Notes under the pieces: generated by a model
What the model saw: the letters and a program-made list of their open reading frames with translations, nothing else
Databases searched by the model: none
Told to the model about the DNA's origin: nothing
In this document: positions 15,617-26,935 of the stretch, piece after piece
How the letters are laid out: each line of letters opens with the position of its first letter
Position numbering within the stretch: the stretch's first letter is position 1
Origin: Polynucleobacter meluiroseus
Lineage (GTDB): Bacteria; Pseudomonadota; Gammaproteobacteria; Burkholderiales; Burkholderiaceae
Direction: 5' to 3'
Assembly: GCA_945864455.1 (NCBI GenBank)
Contig: CAMBBT010000005.1
Location: 1-32,217, forward strand
Length of the DNA: 32,217 nt
Made by a program: the position numbers and the translations under genes

Positions 15617-17116
15617 TTATGCAGCAACAGCCTTTTTCTTACCAATCAACTTGCCAATCAATGGCCAGAAGAGCAACAGTAAGGCCAATGTAGTGATCGC
15701 ACCTACCAAGTAGTTAGAGAAGAAAATATCTAAGCTTCCCTGTGAGAACAACATGGATTGACGGAAAGAATCTTCTGCACGGTCGCCCAATACTAAGGCT
15801 AATACCATTGGTGCCATTGGGTAGTCGAGTTTTTTGAAGGCATAGCCCAAAACACCGAAGCCCATCATCAACCAAACGTCAAACATCGCATTGTGAACAG
15901 TGTATGCACCTACCGCACAAATCACAATAATGACTGGTGCAATGATTGAGAACGGAATTCTCAAGATCGAAGCAAACAATGGCACGCAAGTTAGAACAAC
16001 AAACAAGCCAGCCAAGTTACCTAAGTACATACTGGCAATCAAGCCCCAAACAAAGTCTGGCTTCTCAACGAAGAGCAATGGACCAGGCTGCAAGCCCCAG
16101 ATCAGGAGACCACCAAGCAATACCGCCGCTGTTGGTGAACCTGGGATACCCAGAGATAACATTGGCAGAAGTGCTGCCGTACCTGCAGCATGGGCCGCAG
16201 TTTCTGGAGCAACAATACCTTCCATTTTGCCGCTACCAAACTGATCACTATCTTTGGATACGCGCTTAGCAACACCATACGCCATAAAGGAAGCTGGAGT
16301 AGCGCCACCTGGAGTGATACCCATCCAGCAACCAATCAAACAGCTACGCAATGAAGTAGCCCAGTATTTTGGTAACTGCTTCCAAGTTTCCCAAACTACC
16401 TTAGCGCGAATCTTGGCAGCTGCGCCTTTGAATGCAAGGCCCTCTTCCATCGATAGCAAGATCTCACCAATACCAAACAAACCGATCACAGCAATCAAGA
16501 AGTCAAAACCACGCATCAACTCTGGATTACCAAATGTCAAACGCAATTGACCTGTAACCGTATCCATACCAACAGTAGCCAAGCCAAAGCCCAGCATCAT
16601 GGCTGAAATCGTTTTAAACGGCGACCCCTTATTCATGCCCACGAAACTACAGAACGTCAGTAAGTAAACCGAGAAGAACTCCGGGGGCCCAAATTGCAAT
16701 GCAAACTTAGCAACCAACGGAGCTAAGAAGGTAATCATCACGATCGCAAAGAACGCGCCTATGAATGAAGAGGTAAACGCTGCAGTTAAAGCCTCACCTG
16801 CTTTGCCATTCCGAGCCATTGGATAACCATCAAAGGTTGTTGCAACAGACCACGGCTCACCTGGAATATTAAAGAGAATAGAGGTAATCGCTCCACCAAA
16901 TAATGCACCCCAATAAATGCAAGAGAGCATGATGATGGCTGAAGTTGGTGGCATTGTGAAGGTCAATGGCAACAGAATCGCAATGCCGTTTGCACCGCCC
17001 AGCCCTGGCAATACACCAATGATCACGCCAAGTGTGACACCAATCAACATCAACAATAAGTTAAAGGGTGTCATTGCAATGGCAAAACCATTGAATAGAG
17101 CGTTAATTTCTTCCAA
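15617..17116 (-). CDS. tctA: Tripartite tricarboxylate transporter, large membrane subunit TctA
   Basis: 499 aa; VLPGLGGANGIAILLPLTFTMPPTSAIIMLSCIYWGALFGGAITSILFNIPGEPWSVATTFDGYPMARNGKAGEAL. Confidence 0.94.
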   Translation of the reverse strand: MEEINALFNGFAIAMTPFNLLLMLIGVTLGVIIGVLPGLGGANGIAILLPLTFTMPPTSAIIMLSCIYWGALFGGAITSILFNIPGEPWSVATTFDGYPMARNGKAGEALTAAFTSSFIGAFFAIVMITFLAPLVAKFALQFGPPEFFSVYLLTFCSFVGMNKGSPFKTISAMMLGFGLATVGMDTVTGQLRLTFGNPELMRGFDFLIAVIGLFGIGEILLSMEEGLAFKGAAAKIRAKVVWETWKQLPKYWATSLRSCLIGCWMGITPGGATPASFMAYGVAKRVSKDSDQFGSGKMEGIVAPETAAHAAGTAALLPMLSLGIPGSPTAAVLLGGLLIWGLQPGPLLFVEKPDFVWGLIASMYLGNLAGLFVVLTCVPLFASILRIPFSIIAPVIIVICAVGAYTVHNAMFDVWLMMGFGVLGYAFKKLDYPMAPMVLALVLGDRAEDSFRQSMLFSQGSLDIFFSNYLVGAITTLALLLLFWPLIGKLIGKKKAVAA

Positions 17117-17156
17117 CTTGTACTCCTTTTTTTCTAATCTTTTTTAATTGTATTTT

Positions 17157-17684
17157 TTAGTTCACGCCAACAAACTCGAGCGGATTAAACCACGAGCCAT
17201 GTGGCAATGGAACTTGGAACCAGAACTCGAACATGAGGTAAAGCGCTACGGTCACCCCAACGGATACCGCAATTGCTTTCCAAATTGGATATTTGCCTAA
17301 CCACACCATAAAGATTGCGATGTAGAGGGCTGAAGCAACATAGATACCAATTAATTGCACACCAAGAACAAAAACAATTGCTGGCAATAAGACCGCCATT
17401 ACTTGTTTGAGAGGCTCCCTCCCAACAAACGATTCTGTTTTCTTTTTCTTATCAACGATTACCGCTTGATATAGGGTTGCAGAGCTTGAGAGAAGAATGA
17501 TCAAGCTGATATAGAACGGGAAATATCCCGCTTCTGGACCGTCACTACCCCAACTTGCGCCTAACTTGAGGCTTCCAATCATTACTGTTAGACCAAACGC
17601 AAGGAACAAGATAGCGGTAATGATATCCATTGCTCTTACGCTGATTGCTGAGTCTTCATTTGAATTATTTGCTTGTTCAGACAT
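17157..17684 (-). CDS. tctB: Tripartite tricarboxylate transporter, small membrane subunit TctB
   Basis: 175 aa, four predicted TM helices, GASWGSDGPEAGYFPFYISLII motif; between tctC and tctA. Confidence 0.88.
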   Translation of the reverse strand: MSEQANNSNEDSAISVRAMDIITAILFLAFGLTVMIGSLKLGASWGSDGPEAGYFPFYISLIILLSSSATLYQAVIVDKKKKTESFVGREPLKQVMAVLLPAIVFVLGVQLIGIYVASALYIAIFMVWLGKYPIWKAIAVSVGVTVALYLMFEFWFQVPLPHGSWFNPLEFVGVN

Positions 17685-17722
17685 TTTTTTTCACTAGTAA
17701 AAGTTGATTAATACACTTACTT

Positions 17723-17753
17723 AAAAAATAGGACCCCCAGTGGAGGTCCTATC
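17723..17753 (-). terminator. Stem-loop terminator/attenuator between tctC and tctB
   Basis: Minus strand: ATAGGACC-(9 nt)-GGTCCTAT followed by TTTTTT. Confidence 0.8.
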
Positions 17754-17767
17754 TCGATTCCTAAAAA

Positions 17768-18769
17768 TTACTTAGCCAAGAAACCTGCTTCAGTCATTAA
17801 CTGCTTATGGAGTACTTCATTCAGAGTTAACCAGTTTCTAAACTCTTTACCAGTCATAAATGTCTGATTGAATGCACCGTCAGCCATGAACTTCTTCCAC
17901 TCTGGTGTAGCTCGTACTTTTTTAAACAATTCAATAAAGAAATCAACTTGCTCTTGAGTTACGCCTGGAGCCATGAAAATACCACGCAGCATCACATAGT
18001 CAGTTGTTACTCCCGCCTCTTTGCAAGTGGGTACGTCATACCATGATTGAGTATCCGTAATTTTTTCTTTATAAGGCATGCGGGTGTCATCAAATACGCA
18101 TAATGCACGTAATTTGTTAGCACGCCACTGAGCTACTGCCTCAATAGGATTATTGACAGTTGAATCAATATGATTGCCAACGAGTTGAACAGCAACGTCT
18201 CCACCCCCCTTAAACGGGATGTAGATGAACTTTGCACCTGTGGCCTTTTCAAGGGCAACGGTAATGATCTGATCTTCTTGTTTAGAACCAGTACCACCCA
18301 TCTTGAACTTGCCTTGTGCTGCTTTAGCGGCATCGATATATTCCTTGGCTGTCTTATATGGCTTATCAACGTTATTCCACAAAACAAACTGGTCTAATGC
18401 CAACATGGCCACTGGAGTGATGTCTTGCCAGTTAAATGGAACACCGGTTGCCAATGGAGTAGTAAACAAATTGGAAAGTGTGATCACAATCTTATGAGGG
18501 TCGCCTTTAGCCTCTTTCATTGCCAAGAAACCTTCAGCACCAGCACCAGCACCTTTATTGACTGGAATGATTGACTGCTTCATCAAATTATTTTTTGTGA
18601 CGATGCCTTGGATCATACGAGCCATTTGGTCAGCGCCACCGCCAGGACCGGCGGGAATGATAAATTCAACAGGCTTAGTGGGCTCCCATGCAGCGAATGC
18701 AGGTGATACGCCAGCAACACCGAGGGCTAATGCGGTGGAAATCAATGCCCCTTTTAACTTCATCTTCAT
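17768..18769 (-). CDS. tctC: Tripartite tricarboxylate transporter substrate-binding protein (TctC/Bug family)
   Basis: 333 aa, signal peptide, AWEPTKPVEFIIPAGPGGGADQMARMI; AGAGAEGFLAMKEAKGDPHKIVITLSN; AGGAGC RBS. Confidence 0.92.
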   Translation of the reverse strand: MKMKLKGALISTALALGVAGVSPAFAAWEPTKPVEFIIPAGPGGGADQMARMIQGIVTKNNLMKQSIIPVNKGAGAGAEGFLAMKEAKGDPHKIVITLSNLFTTPLATGVPFNWQDITPVAMLALDQFVLWNNVDKPYKTAKEYIDAAKAAQGKFKMGGTGSKQEDQIITVALEKATGAKFIYIPFKGGGDVAVQLVGNHIDSTVNNPIEAVAQWRANKLRALCVFDDTRMPYKEKITDTQSWYDVPTCKEAGVTTDYVMLRGIFMAPGVTQEQVDFFIELFKKVRATPEWKKFMADGAFNQTFMTGKEFRNWLTLNEVLHKQLMTEAGFLAK

Positions 18770-19144: not shown

Positions 19145-19612
19145 CTAGCGGAAACGATCAAGCAGCTTTTTGCTGACTTTATCGAGCTGCGTGGCATCTT
19201 TAATTAGAAATTGTAGGCCATTTGAATCCGCAATCAGTAAGGTATTACCAGCGATTCTGCGGATGTCTTCCTCACCCTTAAGACGAATACGCGTTGGTCC
19301 ACGGTCCGTTTCAATATCCCAAATACTGGGCGTAGCAAATGTAGATACCTGGGTAATTTTTTCAATGACCGGCATAAATTCTCGGGCAGCCAACTCTTCT
19401 TCAATCAGTATGAGCTCTGCTTCTGGAATCAGTGCAACATCTGGGAACCAGCATACTTCGTTTCCAGACTGATTCATGATGCCGATACCAGCAGCAGGTG
19501 CAGTAATTGGAAATGCTCGCACGGGATATACGCCAATATGGCGATCACCCTTTGCGTCAATGAAAATCAAGTTTCCAAGCGCATCCCGTTCTAGTAGATG
19601 GGACTTATTCAT
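19145..19612 (-). CDS. DUF1854 family protein, cyanophycin-locus associated
   Basis: 155 aa; VYPVRAFPITAPAAGIGIMNQSGNEVCWFPDVALIPEAELILIEEELAAREFMPVIEKI; ATG overlaps the stop of the ABC transporter gene (ATGA). Confidence 0.82.
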   Translation of the reverse strand: MNKSHLLERDALGNLIFIDAKGDRHIGVYPVRAFPITAPAAGIGIMNQSGNEVCWFPDVALIPEAELILIEEELAAREFMPVIEKITQVSTFATPSIWDIETDRGPTRIRLKGEEDIRRIAGNTLLIADSNGLQFLIKDATQLDKVSKKLLDRFR

Positions 19613-21966
19613 ACTCCACCCCCAATATTCTTAGCAAGAAGATCTAATTTTTCTATCTGCTTTTGTTGCTGCTGTTCTGCTCGAGGCTCCTCAAGACTCT
19701 CACCAATCGCTCCGCCCTCAACCAACTCGGCAGCATGACGGAGTTGCGCCTGATATAGAGTGAAATAAGCGCCCTGGGATTCCATTAATTGCTCATGCGA
19801 GCCAATCTCGACAATCTCGCCCTTATCAAGTACTACCAGGCGGTCAGCCTTTCTCAGAGTCGAGAGGCGATGTGCAATCGCAATAGTTGTTCGGCCCTTC
19901 ACTAGGTTATCTAATGCGCGTTGAATTTCTTTTTCAGTAGTTGTATCAACTGAAGACGTAGCTTCATCCAAGATTAAGATGCTTGGGTTAATCAGGAGTG
20001 CGCGTGCAATCGAGATACGTTGACGCTCGCCACCCGATAAAGATTGGCCTCGCTCACCAACTAAGGAGTCGTAGCCCAACGGTAATCTGAGAATAAATTC
20101 GTGAGCATGCGCAGCGCGGGCAGCTTCAATAATTTCTTCTCGAGTCGCATCAGACTTTCCATAGGCAATATTCTCTGCAATCGTGCCAAAGAACAAGAAT
20201 GGCTCTTGCAAGACTAAACCAATGCGCTTGCGATAGTCAGAGATTCGAATGCTGCGAATATCACGCCCATCTAAAGAGATTGAGCCTGCACTCACATCAT
20301 AGAAACGGCAGATCAAATTCACTAAGGTGCTCTTACCCGAACCGCTATGCCCTACTAAGCCAATCATTTCACCAGGAGCAATATCTAAATCAATCCCTTT
20401 GGATACCGCACGGTTGCCGTAGCGAAAACCTACTCCCAGCAAGGAGAGGCGACCCTGAACTGGCCCCAGTGGTGCTGGGTTGATGGGCTCAGGAACACTC
20501 GAAACGTGATCCAAAATATCAAAAATACGCTTAGCACCCGCGGCTGCTTTTTGTGTATGAGAAACAATCCGGCTCATCGAGTCTAGGCGAATATAAAAAC
20601 GCCCGATGTAGGCCAAGAAGGCAATCAATACTCCGACTGTTACCTTTTGATGCGCAACCTGCCAAATACCAAAACCCCAAACCACTAGTAAACCTGTTTC
20701 AGTGAGTAAAGTGACTGTGGGAGAAAATAATCCCCAGACACGGTTTACACGATCATTGACTTGTAAGTTATGTTTATTGGAATCTACGAATCGTTTTAGT
20801 TCACGATCTTCTTGAGCAAATGCTTTGACCACCCGAATACCTGGGATAGTATCAGCCAAGATATTAGTCACCTCAGACCAGATACGATCAATCTTTTCAA
20901 AGCCAAAACGTAAGCGATCGCGCACAACATGAATCATCCAGACAATGAAGGGTAATGGAGCTAATGTCACTAAAGCAAGCAAAGGGTCAATCGATACCAA
21001 GATTGCTGCAGTCATGGTGATCATCAATACATCGGTTATAAAATCTAGGGCATACAAGGATAAGAAAACGCAAATCCGATCAGTCTCTGCACCAATGCGG
21101 GCAATCAAGTCGCCAGTACGTTTGCCGCCAAAATACTCCAGTGAAAGTTTGAGCAAGTGTTCAAAAGTAGTATTACGTAAATCGGCACCAATGCGCTCAC
21201 TCACCAAAGCAAGTAAGTAAGTTTTCCACCAACCCAAACCCCAAGCAACAATTGCAGCCCCAAACAATGCGAGCAAATACATGCTGGCCAAATGAAAATC
21301 AATTGGATTGCCTTTCTCATATGGAATCAAGACATGGTCCATCAATGGCATCGTGAGATAAGGCGGGATGAGTGTTGCACCAGTTGATAAGAAAGTCAGT
21401 ACAAAACCGAGTGCGAGTTGTTTTTTGTATGGCTTTGCAAAACGCCAGAGTTTAAATAAGGTCCACGTAGAAGGTGGAGCATCATCCTCTGGATCACAGG
21501 TAGGACATGAATCTGATTTAGTAGATTTTGGACTCAAGCAAACTGGACAAACTTGTTTGTCGTACTCACTTGCCTCACCCTTGCTTTGCTCTTCACCTTT
21601 GGTGAGTTGCTTAAAGCTCAACTGTAGACGCAGAACTTGTGGATTTACTGCAAGAGTGAAATACCAGGCTCTAAGCAAACTGTCAGAAGTTTCCAGTCTA
21701 AGATGGCCGACTCCAGCATGGTCTCCGTGAGCCAAATGCTGCCCTCGCTCTAAAGACCAGGAATCAAATTGCTTGCCATCAGTCCAAAAAAGGCCCTCTT
21801 CACTTAGCAAAAGCAGGCTTTTTTCAAAGCGCAAATCTGCGTCTAAATCCAACTCAACCCATGCTAGCAGGGCATCTAAGCTCCGGATCGGGGATTTTTC
21901 GTCCTGCAAAATCAACTGCCAATAGCTTGGTAAGCTTGAGGCGAAAGGTAGGATTTCTGGCTTCAT
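19609..21966 (-). CDS. ABC transporter, permease-ATPase fusion with N-terminal extension and Zn ribbon, cyanophycin-locus associated
   Basis: 785 aa; Walker A GLVGHSGSGKSTL, signature LSGGERQRISIARALL, Walker B ILILDEATSSVD, six-TM exporter fold, and an N-terminal ~170-aa extension with CPVC-x10-CPTC. Confidence 0.9.
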   Translation of the reverse strand: MKPEILPFASSLPSYWQLILQDEKSPIRSLDALLAWVELDLDADLRFEKSLLLLSEEGLFWTDGKQFDSWSLERGQHLAHGDHAGVGHLRLETSDSLLRAWYFTLAVNPQVLRLQLSFKQLTKGEEQSKGEASEYDKQVCPVCLSPKSTKSDSCPTCDPEDDAPPSTWTLFKLWRFAKPYKKQLALGFVLTFLSTGATLIPPYLTMPLMDHVLIPYEKGNPIDFHLASMYLLALFGAAIVAWGLGWWKTYLLALVSERIGADLRNTTFEHLLKLSLEYFGGKRTGDLIARIGAETDRICVFLSLYALDFITDVLMITMTAAILVSIDPLLALVTLAPLPFIVWMIHVVRDRLRFGFEKIDRIWSEVTNILADTIPGIRVVKAFAQEDRELKRFVDSNKHNLQVNDRVNRVWGLFSPTVTLLTETGLLVVWGFGIWQVAHQKVTVGVLIAFLAYIGRFYIRLDSMSRIVSHTQKAAAGAKRIFDILDHVSSVPEPINPAPLGPVQGRLSLLGVGFRYGNRAVSKGIDLDIAPGEMIGLVGHSGSGKSTLVNLICRFYDVSAGSISLDGRDIRSIRISDYRKRIGLVLQEPFLFFGTIAENIAYGKSDATREEIIEAARAAHAHEFILRLPLGYDSLVGERGQSLSGGERQRISIARALLINPSILILDEATSSVDTTTEKEIQRALDNLVKGRTTIAIAHRLSTLRKADRLVVLDKGEIVEIGSHEQLMESQGAYFTLYQAQLRHAAELVEGGAIGESLEEPRAEQQQQKQIEKLDLLAKNIGGGV

Positions 21967-22171: not shown

Positions 22172-24364
22172 ATGCCCCAATTACTTGATAAATCCATTGA
22201 GATCCTGAGCGTTAAGCATCTCCGTGGCCCCAATATGTGGACCTACCATCCCGTCATTGAGGTTTGGCTTGATATTGGTGATTTGGAGGACTATCCCTCC
22301 AATCTCATTCCTGGTTTTTATGGCCGTCTAGTCAAAGCCCTTCCTAGTCTGGTTGAACATCGTTGCAGTTATGGAGAAACCGGCGGTTTCTTAAAGCGGG
22401 TTGAAGAAGGCACTTGGCCAGCACATATTCTGGAACATCTCACACTTGAGCTGCAAAATTTAGCCGGTATTCCGGGTGGCTTTGGCAAAGCGCGTGATGG
22501 TGATCGCCGGGGAGTTTACAAAGTGATGGTGAGCGCTATTAATGAAGAAGTGACTCTCACTGCCCTTAAATACGCGCGTGATCTGTACTTAGCCTTAGTG
22601 CAAGATAACAAAGATTGTGTTGTGCAAGTTCAAACTATTATTGAAGAGCTACGTGATCTAGGCGATGATCTTTTACTGGGACCAAGCACAGCATGTATTG
22701 TGAATGCTGCAGAAGAGCGCGGCATTCCTTCAATCCGGCTATCCGAAGGCAATTTAGTCCAATTAGGTTATGGTGCTAAACAACGCCGTATCTGGACTGC
22801 AGAAACAGATCAAACCAGCGCGATTGCTGAAACAATTTCTAGAGATAAAGATCTAACTAAAAGCTTGCTGCGAAGCGCTGGCGTTCCTACGCCTGAAGGC
22901 AGAACAGTCACTAGCCCAGATGATGCATGGGAGGCTGCGCAAGATATTGGCCTGCCTGTAGTGGTCAAGCCAATTGACGGTAATCACGGTCGAGGTGTAT
23001 TCATTAACCTTTATACCCAACAAGAAATAGAAGCCGCTTATGCAGTAGCCATTGATGAAGGCAGTGAAGTGCTTGTTGAACGTCATATTATTGGTGATGA
23101 ACATCGCTTACTAGTAGTTGGTAATAAAGTCGTTGCTGCAGCTAAAGGCGAAACCGTTTGGGTTACTGGCGATGGCGAGCATACCGTGCATGAACTCATT
23201 CAGATTCAGATTAATTCTGATCCCCGTCGCGGCACTGCAGAAGAATGTCCACTTAATCCAGTTCGCATTGACTCAGCTGTTGAACTAGAGCTCGCGCGAC
23301 AACAGCTGACTGGTACTAGCATTCCTAGCTTAGATCAAAAAGTACTCATCCAAAGTAATGGCAACGTTGCTTTTGATGTAACCGATTTAGTTCATCCAGA
23401 CATTGCCCACCAAGTAGCCTTGGCTGCGCGCGTAGTTGGCCTTGAAATTGCTGGCGTTGATTTGGTTGCACAAGATATCAGTCGCCCAATGGCAGAGCAA
23501 AATGCTGCCATTGTGGAAGTCAATGCCGGCCCTGGTCTTTTAATGCATTTAAAACCAGCCAGTGGTAAGCCACAACCCGTTGGTAAAGAGATTGCTAACC
23601 ACCTCTTCCCTCCGGAGACGGATTTCCGGATTCCGGTTGTTGGCATTTGTGGTGAAAATGGCAAAACCCCTGTTGCAGAAATGATTGCTCACTTCTTGCG
23701 TCTTACCAATGCCTATGTTGGCCTCTCTTGCAGCAAAGGTTTATATCTTGGTAATCGCACAATTCTAAATACCAATATATCTAATTGGGAAAATGCACGT
23801 CGCACTTTATTAAACCGCACAGTAGAAGCAGTCGTGATTGAAAATAATCATCTCTCGATGCTGATTGAAGGTTTAGCTTACGATCGCTGCCAAGTTGGCG
23901 TGGTTCTCAATATAGACCCTAAGGCGAACTTTCCTCAATATGCAATCTACGATGAAGAACAAGTCTTTAGTATTGTCCGCACTCAAATTGACGTTGTGCT
24001 CCCGAGCGGCGTTGGTGTTCTCAATGCAGATGATCCCATGTGCGTTCAGATGGCAGAGCTCTGTGATGGTGAAGTCATCTTCTTTAGTGAAGATCCTAAT
24101 TCTGATGTTGTCAACACCCATCTACAAAATGGTGGTCGTGTAGTGCTAGTTGGCAAACAACAAATTACGCTTAAGTCTGGCAAGTTGGATCAAAAATCGA
24201 TTCCCGTGCCACGTCACTCAGAATCAAACTCTACTGCTCCATGGAGGGGGATGAACCTTGGCGCAGCAATTGCCGCAGCTTGGGCTTTAGATATTCCGTT
24301 TAATGTTATTGAGGTTGGCGCAGAAACATTTGTGCCAGATCTCACCACTACAACTGGGGTTTAA
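22172..24364 (+). CDS. CphA-like cyanophycin synthetase paralogue with degenerate, truncated Mur-ligase domain
   Basis: 730 aa; ILSVKHLRGPNMWTYHPVIEVWLDIGDLEDYPS, ATP-grasp (VVVKPIDGNHGRGVFINLYTQQEIE; AIVEVNAGPGLLMHLKP), P-loop region altered to CGENGKTPV, ends before the C-terminal Mur-ligase lobe. Confidence 0.92.
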   Translation: MPQLLDKSIEILSVKHLRGPNMWTYHPVIEVWLDIGDLEDYPSNLIPGFYGRLVKALPSLVEHRCSYGETGGFLKRVEEGTWPAHILEHLTLELQNLAGIPGGFGKARDGDRRGVYKVMVSAINEEVTLTALKYARDLYLALVQDNKDCVVQVQTIIEELRDLGDDLLLGPSTACIVNAAEERGIPSIRLSEGNLVQLGYGAKQRRIWTAETDQTSAIAETISRDKDLTKSLLRSAGVPTPEGRTVTSPDDAWEAAQDIGLPVVVKPIDGNHGRGVFINLYTQQEIEAAYAVAIDEGSEVLVERHIIGDEHRLLVVGNKVVAAAKGETVWVTGDGEHTVHELIQIQINSDPRRGTAEECPLNPVRIDSAVELELARQQLTGTSIPSLDQKVLIQSNGNVAFDVTDLVHPDIAHQVALAARVVGLEIAGVDLVAQDISRPMAEQNAAIVEVNAGPGLLMHLKPASGKPQPVGKEIANHLFPPETDFRIPVVGICGENGKTPVAEMIAHFLRLTNAYVGLSCSKGLYLGNRTILNTNISNWENARRTLLNRTVEAVVIENNHLSMLIEGLAYDRCQVGVVLNIDPKANFPQYAIYDEEQVFSIVRTQIDVVLPSGVGVLNADDPMCVQMAELCDGEVIFFSEDPNSDVVNTHLQNGGRVVLVGKQQITLKSGKLDQKSIPVPRHSESNSTAPWRGMNLGAAIAAAWALDIPFNVIEVGAETFVPDLTTTTGV

Positions 24365-26935
24365 TTGGAAATCACCCGTATTCGCATATTGCGCGGTCCT
24401 AATTTATGGAGCCGCCACACTACTTTAGAAGCGATTGTTGCTTGCGAAGAATCTGAACGCTCCATTGATTCCATCCCGCAGTTTGAAACTAAGATTCGTG
24501 AACGCTTTCCGCAATTGGGTAGCATGCGCCGGGGCGGCCAAAATGAAATACTTTCTTTAGCTCATGCTTTAGAATATGCCGCTCTAGGTCTACAAGCACA
24601 AGCGGGCTGCCCTGTCACTTTTAGCCGGACCGTTCAAACGATTGATATTGGCGTCTACCAAGTTGTCGTCGAATACACCGAAGAAGTAGTTGGGCGTATG
24701 GCTTTTGACTTTGCCTTTGCCCTCATTCAGGCTACCTTAAACGATGTATCTTTTGATCTCGCTGCCGCTCTCTCTGAGCTAGAAGCTTTATACGAGGATG
24801 TGCGCCTTGGTCCAAGCACTGGCTCTATTGTTGATGCTGCCGTACAGCGCAATATTCCGTACCGTCGCATGACTGAGGGCAGCATGGTGCAGTTTGGTTG
24901 GGGCAGTAAACAAAAGCGTATCCAAGCGGCTGAAACTAGCGATACCAGCGCTATTGCTGAAGCAATTGCCCAAGATAAAGAATTGACAAAAAACTTACTC
25001 GCAGCAGCTGGCGTATCAGTACCAGTCGGCGAAGTGGTCACTACTGCTGATGAGGCTTGGCGTGCTGCTCAGAAGATTGGCGGCCCCATTGTTTTAAAGC
25101 CAAAAGATGGTAATCAAGGTAAAGGTGTTGTTGCCAATATCCATACTGAAAAAGATATCCGCGCCGGTTTTGTGGTGACTCAAGGCTTTGGTAGCAAAAC
25201 TATTGTTGAACGCTACCTTCCTGGTGCTGACTATCGCTTACTAGTGGTTGGCAGTCGCCTCTCTGCTGCTGCACGTCGTGAGCCAGCCCAAGTGGTTGGT
25301 GACGGCACACACACCATAGCCGAACTAGTTGAAATAGAAAACCAAAATCCCTTGCGTGGCGATGGACATGCCACAGTGCTTACCAAAATTCGGTTTGATG
25401 ATATTGCCCTGGCCCACCTAGCTGGCAATGGCATAAGTCCTCAGTACGTCCCTAAAACTGGGGAACGCATATTACTTCGCAACAATGCAAACTTAAGTAC
25501 CGGTGGAACGGCTACCGACGTCACTGATGATGTCCATCCAGATGTGGCTGCGAGTGCAATAGCTGCCGCGCAAATGATTGGCCTTGATATAGCTGGCGTA
25601 GATATTTTGTGTGAATCTATTTACAAGCCATTAGAGCAACAAGGTGGCGGTATCGTGGAAGTCAATGCCGCACCAGGCTTACGCATGCACTTAAAGCCCT
25701 CTTACGGAAAAGGTCGTGCTGTTGGCGAAGACATTATCAACACCTTGTTCCCTCCTGGCGAAGATGGCCGCATTCCGGTGGTTGCAGTCACTGGTACCAA
25801 TGGTAAAACAACCACTGTCCGTTTAATTGCTCATCTATTAAACGAAACCGGTCTTCGTGTTGGCATCACTACAACTGATGGTGTTTACGTCAATCATCGC
25901 TTGATTGACTCTGGTGATTGCAGTGGGCCAAAGAGCGCTCGTAACGTATTAATGCATCCGGATGTAGATGCTGCAGTACTAGAAACTGCACGTGGCGGTA
26001 TGTTACGAGAAGGCCTTGGTTTTGATCGCTGTGAAGTAGCTGTAGTGACAAATATTGGTGAAGGTGACCACCTTGGGCTAAATTACATTACCAGTGTTGA
26101 GGATTTAGCTATTCTTAAGCGCGTCGTTGTGCAAAATGTTGCGCCAACTGGTGCTGCGGTTCTAAATGCCGCTGATCCTATGGTGGTCAAGATGGGTGAT
26201 AAGTGTGCCGGTCGGGTGATTTTCTTTGCCCAGAATCAACATCATCCGGTCATTGCTGCACATCGCGCGAAGAATAAAAAAGTAATCTACTTTGATGGCA
26301 CATATATTGTTGCCTCAAAAGGTTCACGCGTCATGTACCGCTTTCCTGTCAGTGAAATTCCACTGACTAAAAATGGTGTGTTGGGTTTCCAGGTAGAAAA
26401 TACGATGGCTGCGATTGGTGCAGCCTGGGCACTCGGATTGGACGCTGAAAAAATTGCACGTGGCTTGCATAGCTTTGAGAGTGACGCCAACTCTGTACCA
26501 GGTCGCTTTAATCAGTTCCACCACAATGGTGCAACTGTGATTGCAGACTATGGCCATAATCCAGATGCCATGCGCGCCCTAGCAAGTGCCATTCAAGCCA
26601 TGAAACCAACAAAGAGTCATGTTGTCATTAGCGGGGCTGGGGATCGGCGTGATGAGGATATTCGTGATCTCACCCGTATCCTTGGAAACTCGTTTGACAA
26701 TGTCATCTTGTACCAAGATGCTTGCCAACGTGGTCGTGAAGATGGTGAGGTGATCAAGCTCTTACAAGAAGGATTAGTAGGCGCAACTAAAGCAAAGCAA
26801 GTTAAAGAGATTCATGGGGAATTTAAGGCGATTGATACTGCCCTAAACGATATCTCGCCTGGAGATATCTGCCTCATACTCATTGACCAAGTTGAAGAGT
26901 CACTCGCCTACCTCAAAGAAAAAGTGAGACCCTAG
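24365..26935 (+). CDS. cphA: Cyanophycin synthetase
   Basis: 856 aa; TTG start abutting the upstream stop; ATP-grasp (IVLKPKDGNQGKGVVANI; GIVEVNAAPGLRMHLKPSYGKGRAVGEDIINTLFPPGEDGRIPVVAVTGTNGKTTTVRLIAHLL), AAVLETARGGMLREGLGFDRC, DYGHNPDAMRALASAI. Confidence 0.95.
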   Translation: MEITRIRILRGPNLWSRHTTLEAIVACEESERSIDSIPQFETKIRERFPQLGSMRRGGQNEILSLAHALEYAALGLQAQAGCPVTFSRTVQTIDIGVYQVVVEYTEEVVGRMAFDFAFALIQATLNDVSFDLAAALSELEALYEDVRLGPSTGSIVDAAVQRNIPYRRMTEGSMVQFGWGSKQKRIQAAETSDTSAIAEAIAQDKELTKNLLAAAGVSVPVGEVVTTADEAWRAAQKIGGPIVLKPKDGNQGKGVVANIHTEKDIRAGFVVTQGFGSKTIVERYLPGADYRLLVVGSRLSAAARREPAQVVGDGTHTIAELVEIENQNPLRGDGHATVLTKIRFDDIALAHLAGNGISPQYVPKTGERILLRNNANLSTGGTATDVTDDVHPDVAASAIAAAQMIGLDIAGVDILCESIYKPLEQQGGGIVEVNAAPGLRMHLKPSYGKGRAVGEDIINTLFPPGEDGRIPVVAVTGTNGKTTTVRLIAHLLNETGLRVGITTTDGVYVNHRLIDSGDCSGPKSARNVLMHPDVDAAVLETARGGMLREGLGFDRCEVAVVTNIGEGDHLGLNYITSVEDLAILKRVVVQNVAPTGAAVLNAADPMVVKMGDKCAGRVIFFAQNQHHPVIAAHRAKNKKVIYFDGTYIVASKGSRVMYRFPVSEIPLTKNGVLGFQVENTMAAIGAAWALGLDAEKIARGLHSFESDANSVPGRFNQFHHNGATVIADYGHNPDAMRALASAIQAMKPTKSHVVISGAGDRRDEDIRDLTRILGNSFDNVILYQDACQRGREDGEVIKLLQEGLVGATKAKQVKEIHGEFKAIDTALNDISPGDICLILIDQVEESLAYLKEKVRP

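Follow-up and report, generated by a model that had tools for sequence, protein, structure and literature searches.

Apparent division of the cutting and building sites of CphA1 between two tandem paralogs in Polynucleobacter meluiroseus

Two abutting genes in a 32,217-nucleotide stretch of the Polynucleobacter meluiroseus genome (hereafter, the window) encode CphA paralogs that have lost different active sites: the upstream protein (UP) retains the complete N-domain site of CphA1, and the downstream protein (DN) retains the Asp pocket and the Mur active site. Judging from their residues, we consider it probable that the three active sites of CphA1 were divided after a tandem duplication, with UP becoming a dedicated cutter, or primer-maker, and DN the polymerase for cyanophycin, a nitrogen-storage polymer. 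SuCphA1 (Synechocystis UTEX2470; PDB 7LG5 and 7TXV) has the same three domains, its N-site being that of UP and its Asp and Mur sites those of DN, but it carries all three sites on one chain, whereas in the window they are split over two. Because they share that chain, cutting and building by CphA1, a self-sufficient machine, cannot be balanced through expression (PMC9262961); in the pair, the two kinds of site appear to have been separated naturally. An earlier sequence-only reading of the window had placed a primer-making site in UP and synthetic sites in DN, and the residue-level comparison supports that assignment; the ORF and motif coordinates that it gave were also correct. The upstream gene and its features are as follows.

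22172..24364, + strand: UP, 730 aa; N domain, ATP-grasp (G) domain, and Mur core (Mcore), without Mlid
22358..22366, + strand: H63 and C65 of UP (H57 and C59 of SuCphA1)
22424..22438, + strand: HILEH of UP, with H85, E88, and H89 (H79, E82, and H83; metal ligands and general base)
22985..22987, + strand: H272 of UP (H267 of the G-domain P-loop), retained
23147..23149, + strand: G326 of UP, at the place of Asp-binding R323 of CphA1
23357..23368, + strand: Asp-recognition loop of the G-omega module of UP, five residues shorter, S396 gone
23540..23542, + strand: L457 of UP, at the place of Asp-binding R458 of CphA1
23924..23929, + strand: A585-N586 of UP, at the place of the Mur catalytic D585-H586 of CphA1

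Residues were mapped on SuCphA1, with the sequence taken from PDB alignments and all 31 reference positions verified. In a gap-free alignment, UP residues H63, C65, R76, H85, E88, H89, and E93 correspond to H57, C59, R70, H79, E82, H83, and E87, and the Cx19HxxEH endo-cyanophycinase site of CphA1 is complete (C65, H85, E88, and H89). In CphA1, where it was defined, this N-site makes primers, and C59 is its third metal ligand (PMC9262961). The alignment check, set beforehand, thus placed the HxxEH of UP on the proven hydrolytic site, as had been proposed; in the AlphaFold model, HILEH lies within helix 83-97.

The synthetic sites of UP present a different picture. Its ATP-grasp domain had been described as intact, which is true of the residues for ATP and acyl phosphate, K226, K266, H272, R312, D430, and E449 (K220, K261, H267, R309, D431, and E450 in the reference), retained here and in most UPs, although destroyed in two lineages of the survey described below. 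It is not true of the residues that, in TeCphA1, bind the Asp to be added (PMC9427784): R323 has become G, five residues including S396 are deleted from their loop, and R458 has become L. Conserved, UP-specific switches in the G domain (22985-23542) comprise 188 N, 203 T, 307 E, 323 G, 393 G, 418 L, and 458 L, together with the deletion of residues 396-400; their clustering at the Asp pocket suggests that the domain acquired another substrate or role and is not simply decaying. In the Mur domain, the P-loop is altered, as had been noticed, but only mildly, with N-G-K-T still in place. The sequence indicates that the domain is disabled instead by the loss of the D585-H586 pair and of the entire Mlid with R731 and H748, the C-terminus of UP coinciding with the Mcore/Mlid boundary, in agreement with the reported lack of a C-terminal Mur lobe. 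The D585A/H586A substitution inactivates M in CphA1 (PMC9262961), and D585-H586 and Mlid are retained only in the full-length UPs of some genera. The suggestion that UP supplies a ligation step does not hold up, given that conserved non-binding residues replace the Asp pocket in almost all UPs and the Mur site is gone in most.

Nevertheless, UP is predicted to be a well-folded, CphA1-like protein, its dead Mur core included (AlphaFold pLDDT 89.8). Cyanobacterial CphA2 (PDB 7TA5 and 8FXH), which polymerizes beta-Asp-Arg dipeptides, has a shortened and inactive Mur part, as does UP, and a likeness between the two had been proposed. The comparison breaks down, since the N-site motif of UP is missing from CphA2 (PMC9262961) and the fold of UP is nearer to that of cyanobacterial CphA1 (Foldseek TM 0.85-0.87) than to that of CphA2 (TM 0.62-0.67). 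With the sequences ranking likewise (496 bits versus 187 bits), identification of UP as a CphA2 was ruled out.

DN begins with a TTG codon that abuts the TAA of UP and shows the following features.

24365..26935, + strand: DN, 856 aa, TTG start; N-site lost, G-domain Asp pocket and entire Mur domain intact
24524..24589, + strand: N-site remnant of DN: M54, R56, a deletion over F67/R70, then HALEY (24563-24577)
25115..25117, + strand: Q251 of DN, replacing H267
25277..25684, + strand: Asp pocket of DN, R305, N376, S378, and R440 (R323, N394, S396, and R458), all retained
26066..26557, + strand: Mur catalytic D568-H569, F675, R714, and H731 of DN (D585-H586, F692, R731, and H748), retained

At the places of H57, C59, R70, H79, E82, H83, and E87, DN has M54, R56, a deletion, H67, E70, Y71, and G75; the N-domain site is absent, and the Asp-pocket, Mur active-site, and Mlid residues are present. 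The N-domain site is missing in about 17% of CphA1. TmCphA1, a primer-dependent CphA1 (PDB 7LGN), resembles DN in having the synthetic sites without the N-site motif, but its P-loop has H267; in DN the residue is Q267, and next to DN lies an obligate partner that bears the N-site. The sequence-only reading had recognized that DN lost the N-site, which it ascribed to HALEY. However, 60-odd of the 149 DNs surveyed still have HxxEH, so that the H-to-Y change is a lineage-specific detail of the window and was ruled out as a general loss; what every DN lacks is C59 and H57, together with ~9 residues deleted over F67 and R70. The Q at the place of H267 had been missed.

The survey covered named genomes and other GTDB genomes, leaving out the Tetrasphaera pair (with cphB), and yielded 149 readable tandem pairs, which at 70% identity form 52 UP and 22 DN clusters. 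The N-site HCRHEHE is complete in all 148 readable UPs, and C59 is present in none of the 149 DNs, H57 being likewise gone. By cluster, the four metal and base residues occur in 51/51 readable UP clusters and 16/16 single-CphA clusters, and C59 in 0/22 DN clusters. Conversely, every DN has R323, N394, S396, and R458 (149/149), and every readable DN has D585/H586. A pattern shown by 149 pairs in this many clusters excludes chance, and its conservation, which had been put forward as a check, extends across the order and beyond. An unbiased count of the columns conserved at ≥95% in single CphA1 gives the same division: UP and DN retain, respectively, 84% and 44% of such columns in the N domain, 76% and 92% in the G domain, 49% and 88% in Mcore, and 11% and 100% in Mlid. 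The hydrolytic site is the sole feature common to every UP surveyed; in genomes G279, G382, G498, and G590, from two lineages, the ATP-grasp P-loop or metal ligands of UP (L177, L181, L182, and L135) are destroyed while the N-site is perfect.

This conservation bears on the nature of UP. Its degraded G and M sites and preserved fold would be expected of a regulatory or structural pseudoenzyme with a zinc site for folding only, DN alone making cyanophycin, yet we regard this as improbable: E82, the general base, and H57, R70, and E87 of the second shell vary no more than the metal ligands, although a structural zinc site would have no need of them, and within UP the N domain is under the strongest constraint. 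Within Polynucleobacter, relative dN/dS increases from N through G to Mcore in UP and from Mcore through G to N in DN, the absolute values being only approximate, as synonymous sites are almost saturated. That UP is a decaying pseudogene was ruled out by strong purifying selection, the confident fold, and the invariant N-site, and is also countered by the conservation of the altered Asp-pocket residues themselves.

The chief reservation about this assignment is some doubt that DN performs both ligations unaided, raised by its G-domain P-loop, in which Q replaces H267 in 145 of the 149 DNs. In SuCphA1, H267A abolishes the activity of the G domain, and in TeCphA1 it reduces activity. However, Gln also occupies this place in Escherichia coli RimK (GTQGIGV), an active acidic-residue ligase, which shows that an ATP-grasp enzyme with Gln there can ligate an acidic residue. 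Since H267 is retained in most UPs (46/50 readable clusters), with the Asp pocket distributed in the opposite way, the two proteins might form an obligate hetero-oligomer in which UP aids Asp ligation, its H267 complementing Q267 of DN, and both are needed for polymer synthesis. Obligate adjacency and the dimerization of CphA1 G domains, with E215 reaching across (PMC9427784), would fit such an arrangement. We nevertheless find it rather unlikely: in the structures, a single protomer supplies both H267 and the Asp pocket, which makes complementation geometrically unlikely; DN has kept Q in G279 and G382 despite the destroyed P-loop of UP; and RimK functions with Gln. E215 is absent from both UP and DN, a loss that counts against the proposed division of labor. 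The DN partners of L181 and L182 have H267 rather than Q.

In the phylogeny, UP and DN each form a clade (SH-aLRT 100 each); the two group as sisters (99), separate from every single CphA1, and therefore stem from one duplication. The Mur region of full-length UPs (Achromobacter, Pandoraea, and others) forms its own clade beside DN (100), indicating that the ancestor of UP had the Mur lobe and that it disappeared on several occasions (the N+G tree has seven changes). Gene conversion from DN as the source of this Mur domain was ruled out by the same clade. A third CphA, L195 (G055:C1:5341500-5348500), is not in tandem and lies near a cyanophycinase gene; it lacks the N-site, has Q267, and sits on a long branch just outside the UP+DN clade.

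Under the preferred reading, a single CphA1 would have been duplicated in tandem and its three active sites shared out between the copies. DN would act as the polymerase, its ATP-grasp domain extending the backbone with Asp and its Mur domain attaching Arg to the side chain; being presumably unable to cut the polymer, it is expected to depend on primers when alone. UP, having retained the N-domain metal site, would hydrolyze DN-made chains into short segments for DN to extend, supplying primers in trans, in line with the rescue in trans by a SuCphA1 construct with only the N domain active (PMC9262961). Both cphA copies are evenly expressed in Accumulibacter (PMC10687191). The ATP-grasp domain of UP, predicted not to bind Asp, may persist as an altered, often ATP-competent module that holds the polymer or acts on another substrate, with the Mur domain serving as a folded scaffold or lost; conservation of the ATP-site residues in most lineages points to a further function beyond this model. 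What the comparison establishes is the residues and their conservation, a single duplication, obligate pairing, and the lack of cyanophycinase; the catalysis of each protein, the supply of primers in trans, a depolymerase role, and any physical association are inferred.

CphA was found in 114 of 300 genomes of Burkholderiales, with at least two matches in 105 of the 114, and exactly two in all 57 sampled Burkholderiaceae genomes with CphA; the median gap between UP and DN is 0 nt in a sample composed mostly of Polynucleobacter. The cyanophycinase family TIGR02069 is present in 4/62 pair genomes versus 18/18 single-CphA genomes, where the gene mostly adjoins cphA. In one of the four, G055, it lies beside the third, non-pair CphA. 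The absence is partly confounded with ancestry; within Burkholderiales, 4/4 single-CphA genomes tested have the gene. UP may also mobilize the polymer in cells without cyanophycinase, but full depolymerization would need more, since the characterized N-site is slow and releases mainly 4-mers. That UP is the long-missing cyanophycinase of Betaproteobacteria as well as a primer-maker, the depolymerase being a retired synthetase, is an idea that we advance tentatively, as possible but doubtful. CphB cyanophycinase (S51 family) would share the cutting of cyanophycin with UP, but uses serine chemistry rather than a metal site, has an unrelated fold, and is nearly mutually exclusive with the pair.

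Divergent from the pair lie two genes of families named for their association with CphA, for which our search found no literature account.

19609..21966, − strand: ABC exporter, NCBIfam CphA_assoc_ABC (1321 bits, cut-off 880), divergent from the pair
19145..19612, − strand: DUF1854 protein, NCBIfam CphA_assoc_prot (NCBIfam match)

All 62 pair genomes carry CphA_assoc_ABC, and none of the 18 single-CphA genomes does. Together with the general lack of cyanophycinase in pair genomes, the loss of E215 from both proteins, and the absence of detected cyanophycin in Ralstonia eutropha H16, this could mean that the pair makes an oligomer or modified polymer exported by the dedicated transporter, rather than ordinary stored cyanophycin. 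We hold this to be a slim prospect, as all examined Asp- and Mur-site residues are retained in DN, pointing to a standard Asp/Arg product, and both the substrate and the direction of the transporter are only putative. Cyanophycin fragments could be a candidate substrate. An N-terminal CxxC...CxxC zinc-ribbon-like motif is present in 75/78 full-length relatives of the exporter.

Adjacent cphA copies, with an ABC transporter and without cphB, have been reported in Betaproteobacteria and both products treated as cyanophycin synthetases (PMC5178258, PMC10687191, PMC8560796); those of Sideroxydans, Accumulibacter, and R. eutropha H16 are, in all likelihood, these same pairs of genes. Betaproteobacteria have also been reported to lack cyanophycinase (PMC5178258, PMC10687191, PMC10206079), and a substitute or analogue has been called for (PMC10687191, PMC10206079), for which UP is a direct candidate. 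Of the residue-level division of active sites, our search, with subscription papers and preprints outside its scope, found no published account. According to Adames 2013, as relayed in PMC8560796 and PMC11362209, the two cphA homologs of R. eutropha H16 yielded cyanophycin neither in their own host nor in E. coli, a result that counts against the pair as a cyanophycin-making system. In one survey, 903 of 1614 CphA1-bearing genomes came from this bacterial group (PMC10206079). DN-type proteins would be among the motif-less CphA1s read as primer-dependent despite the neighboring partner, and the division could be a reason for failure when one gene is expressed alone. The two-gene pair would also offer a tunable system for polymer production.

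Two minor observations concern gene structure and neighborhood. At L120:5033-7847 (+), DN lies in two overlapping frames, through either a frameshift or an assembly error. In the window, genes for two tripartite tricarboxylate transporter subunits, TctB and TctC, lie beyond the DUF1854 gene (15617-18769, − strand).
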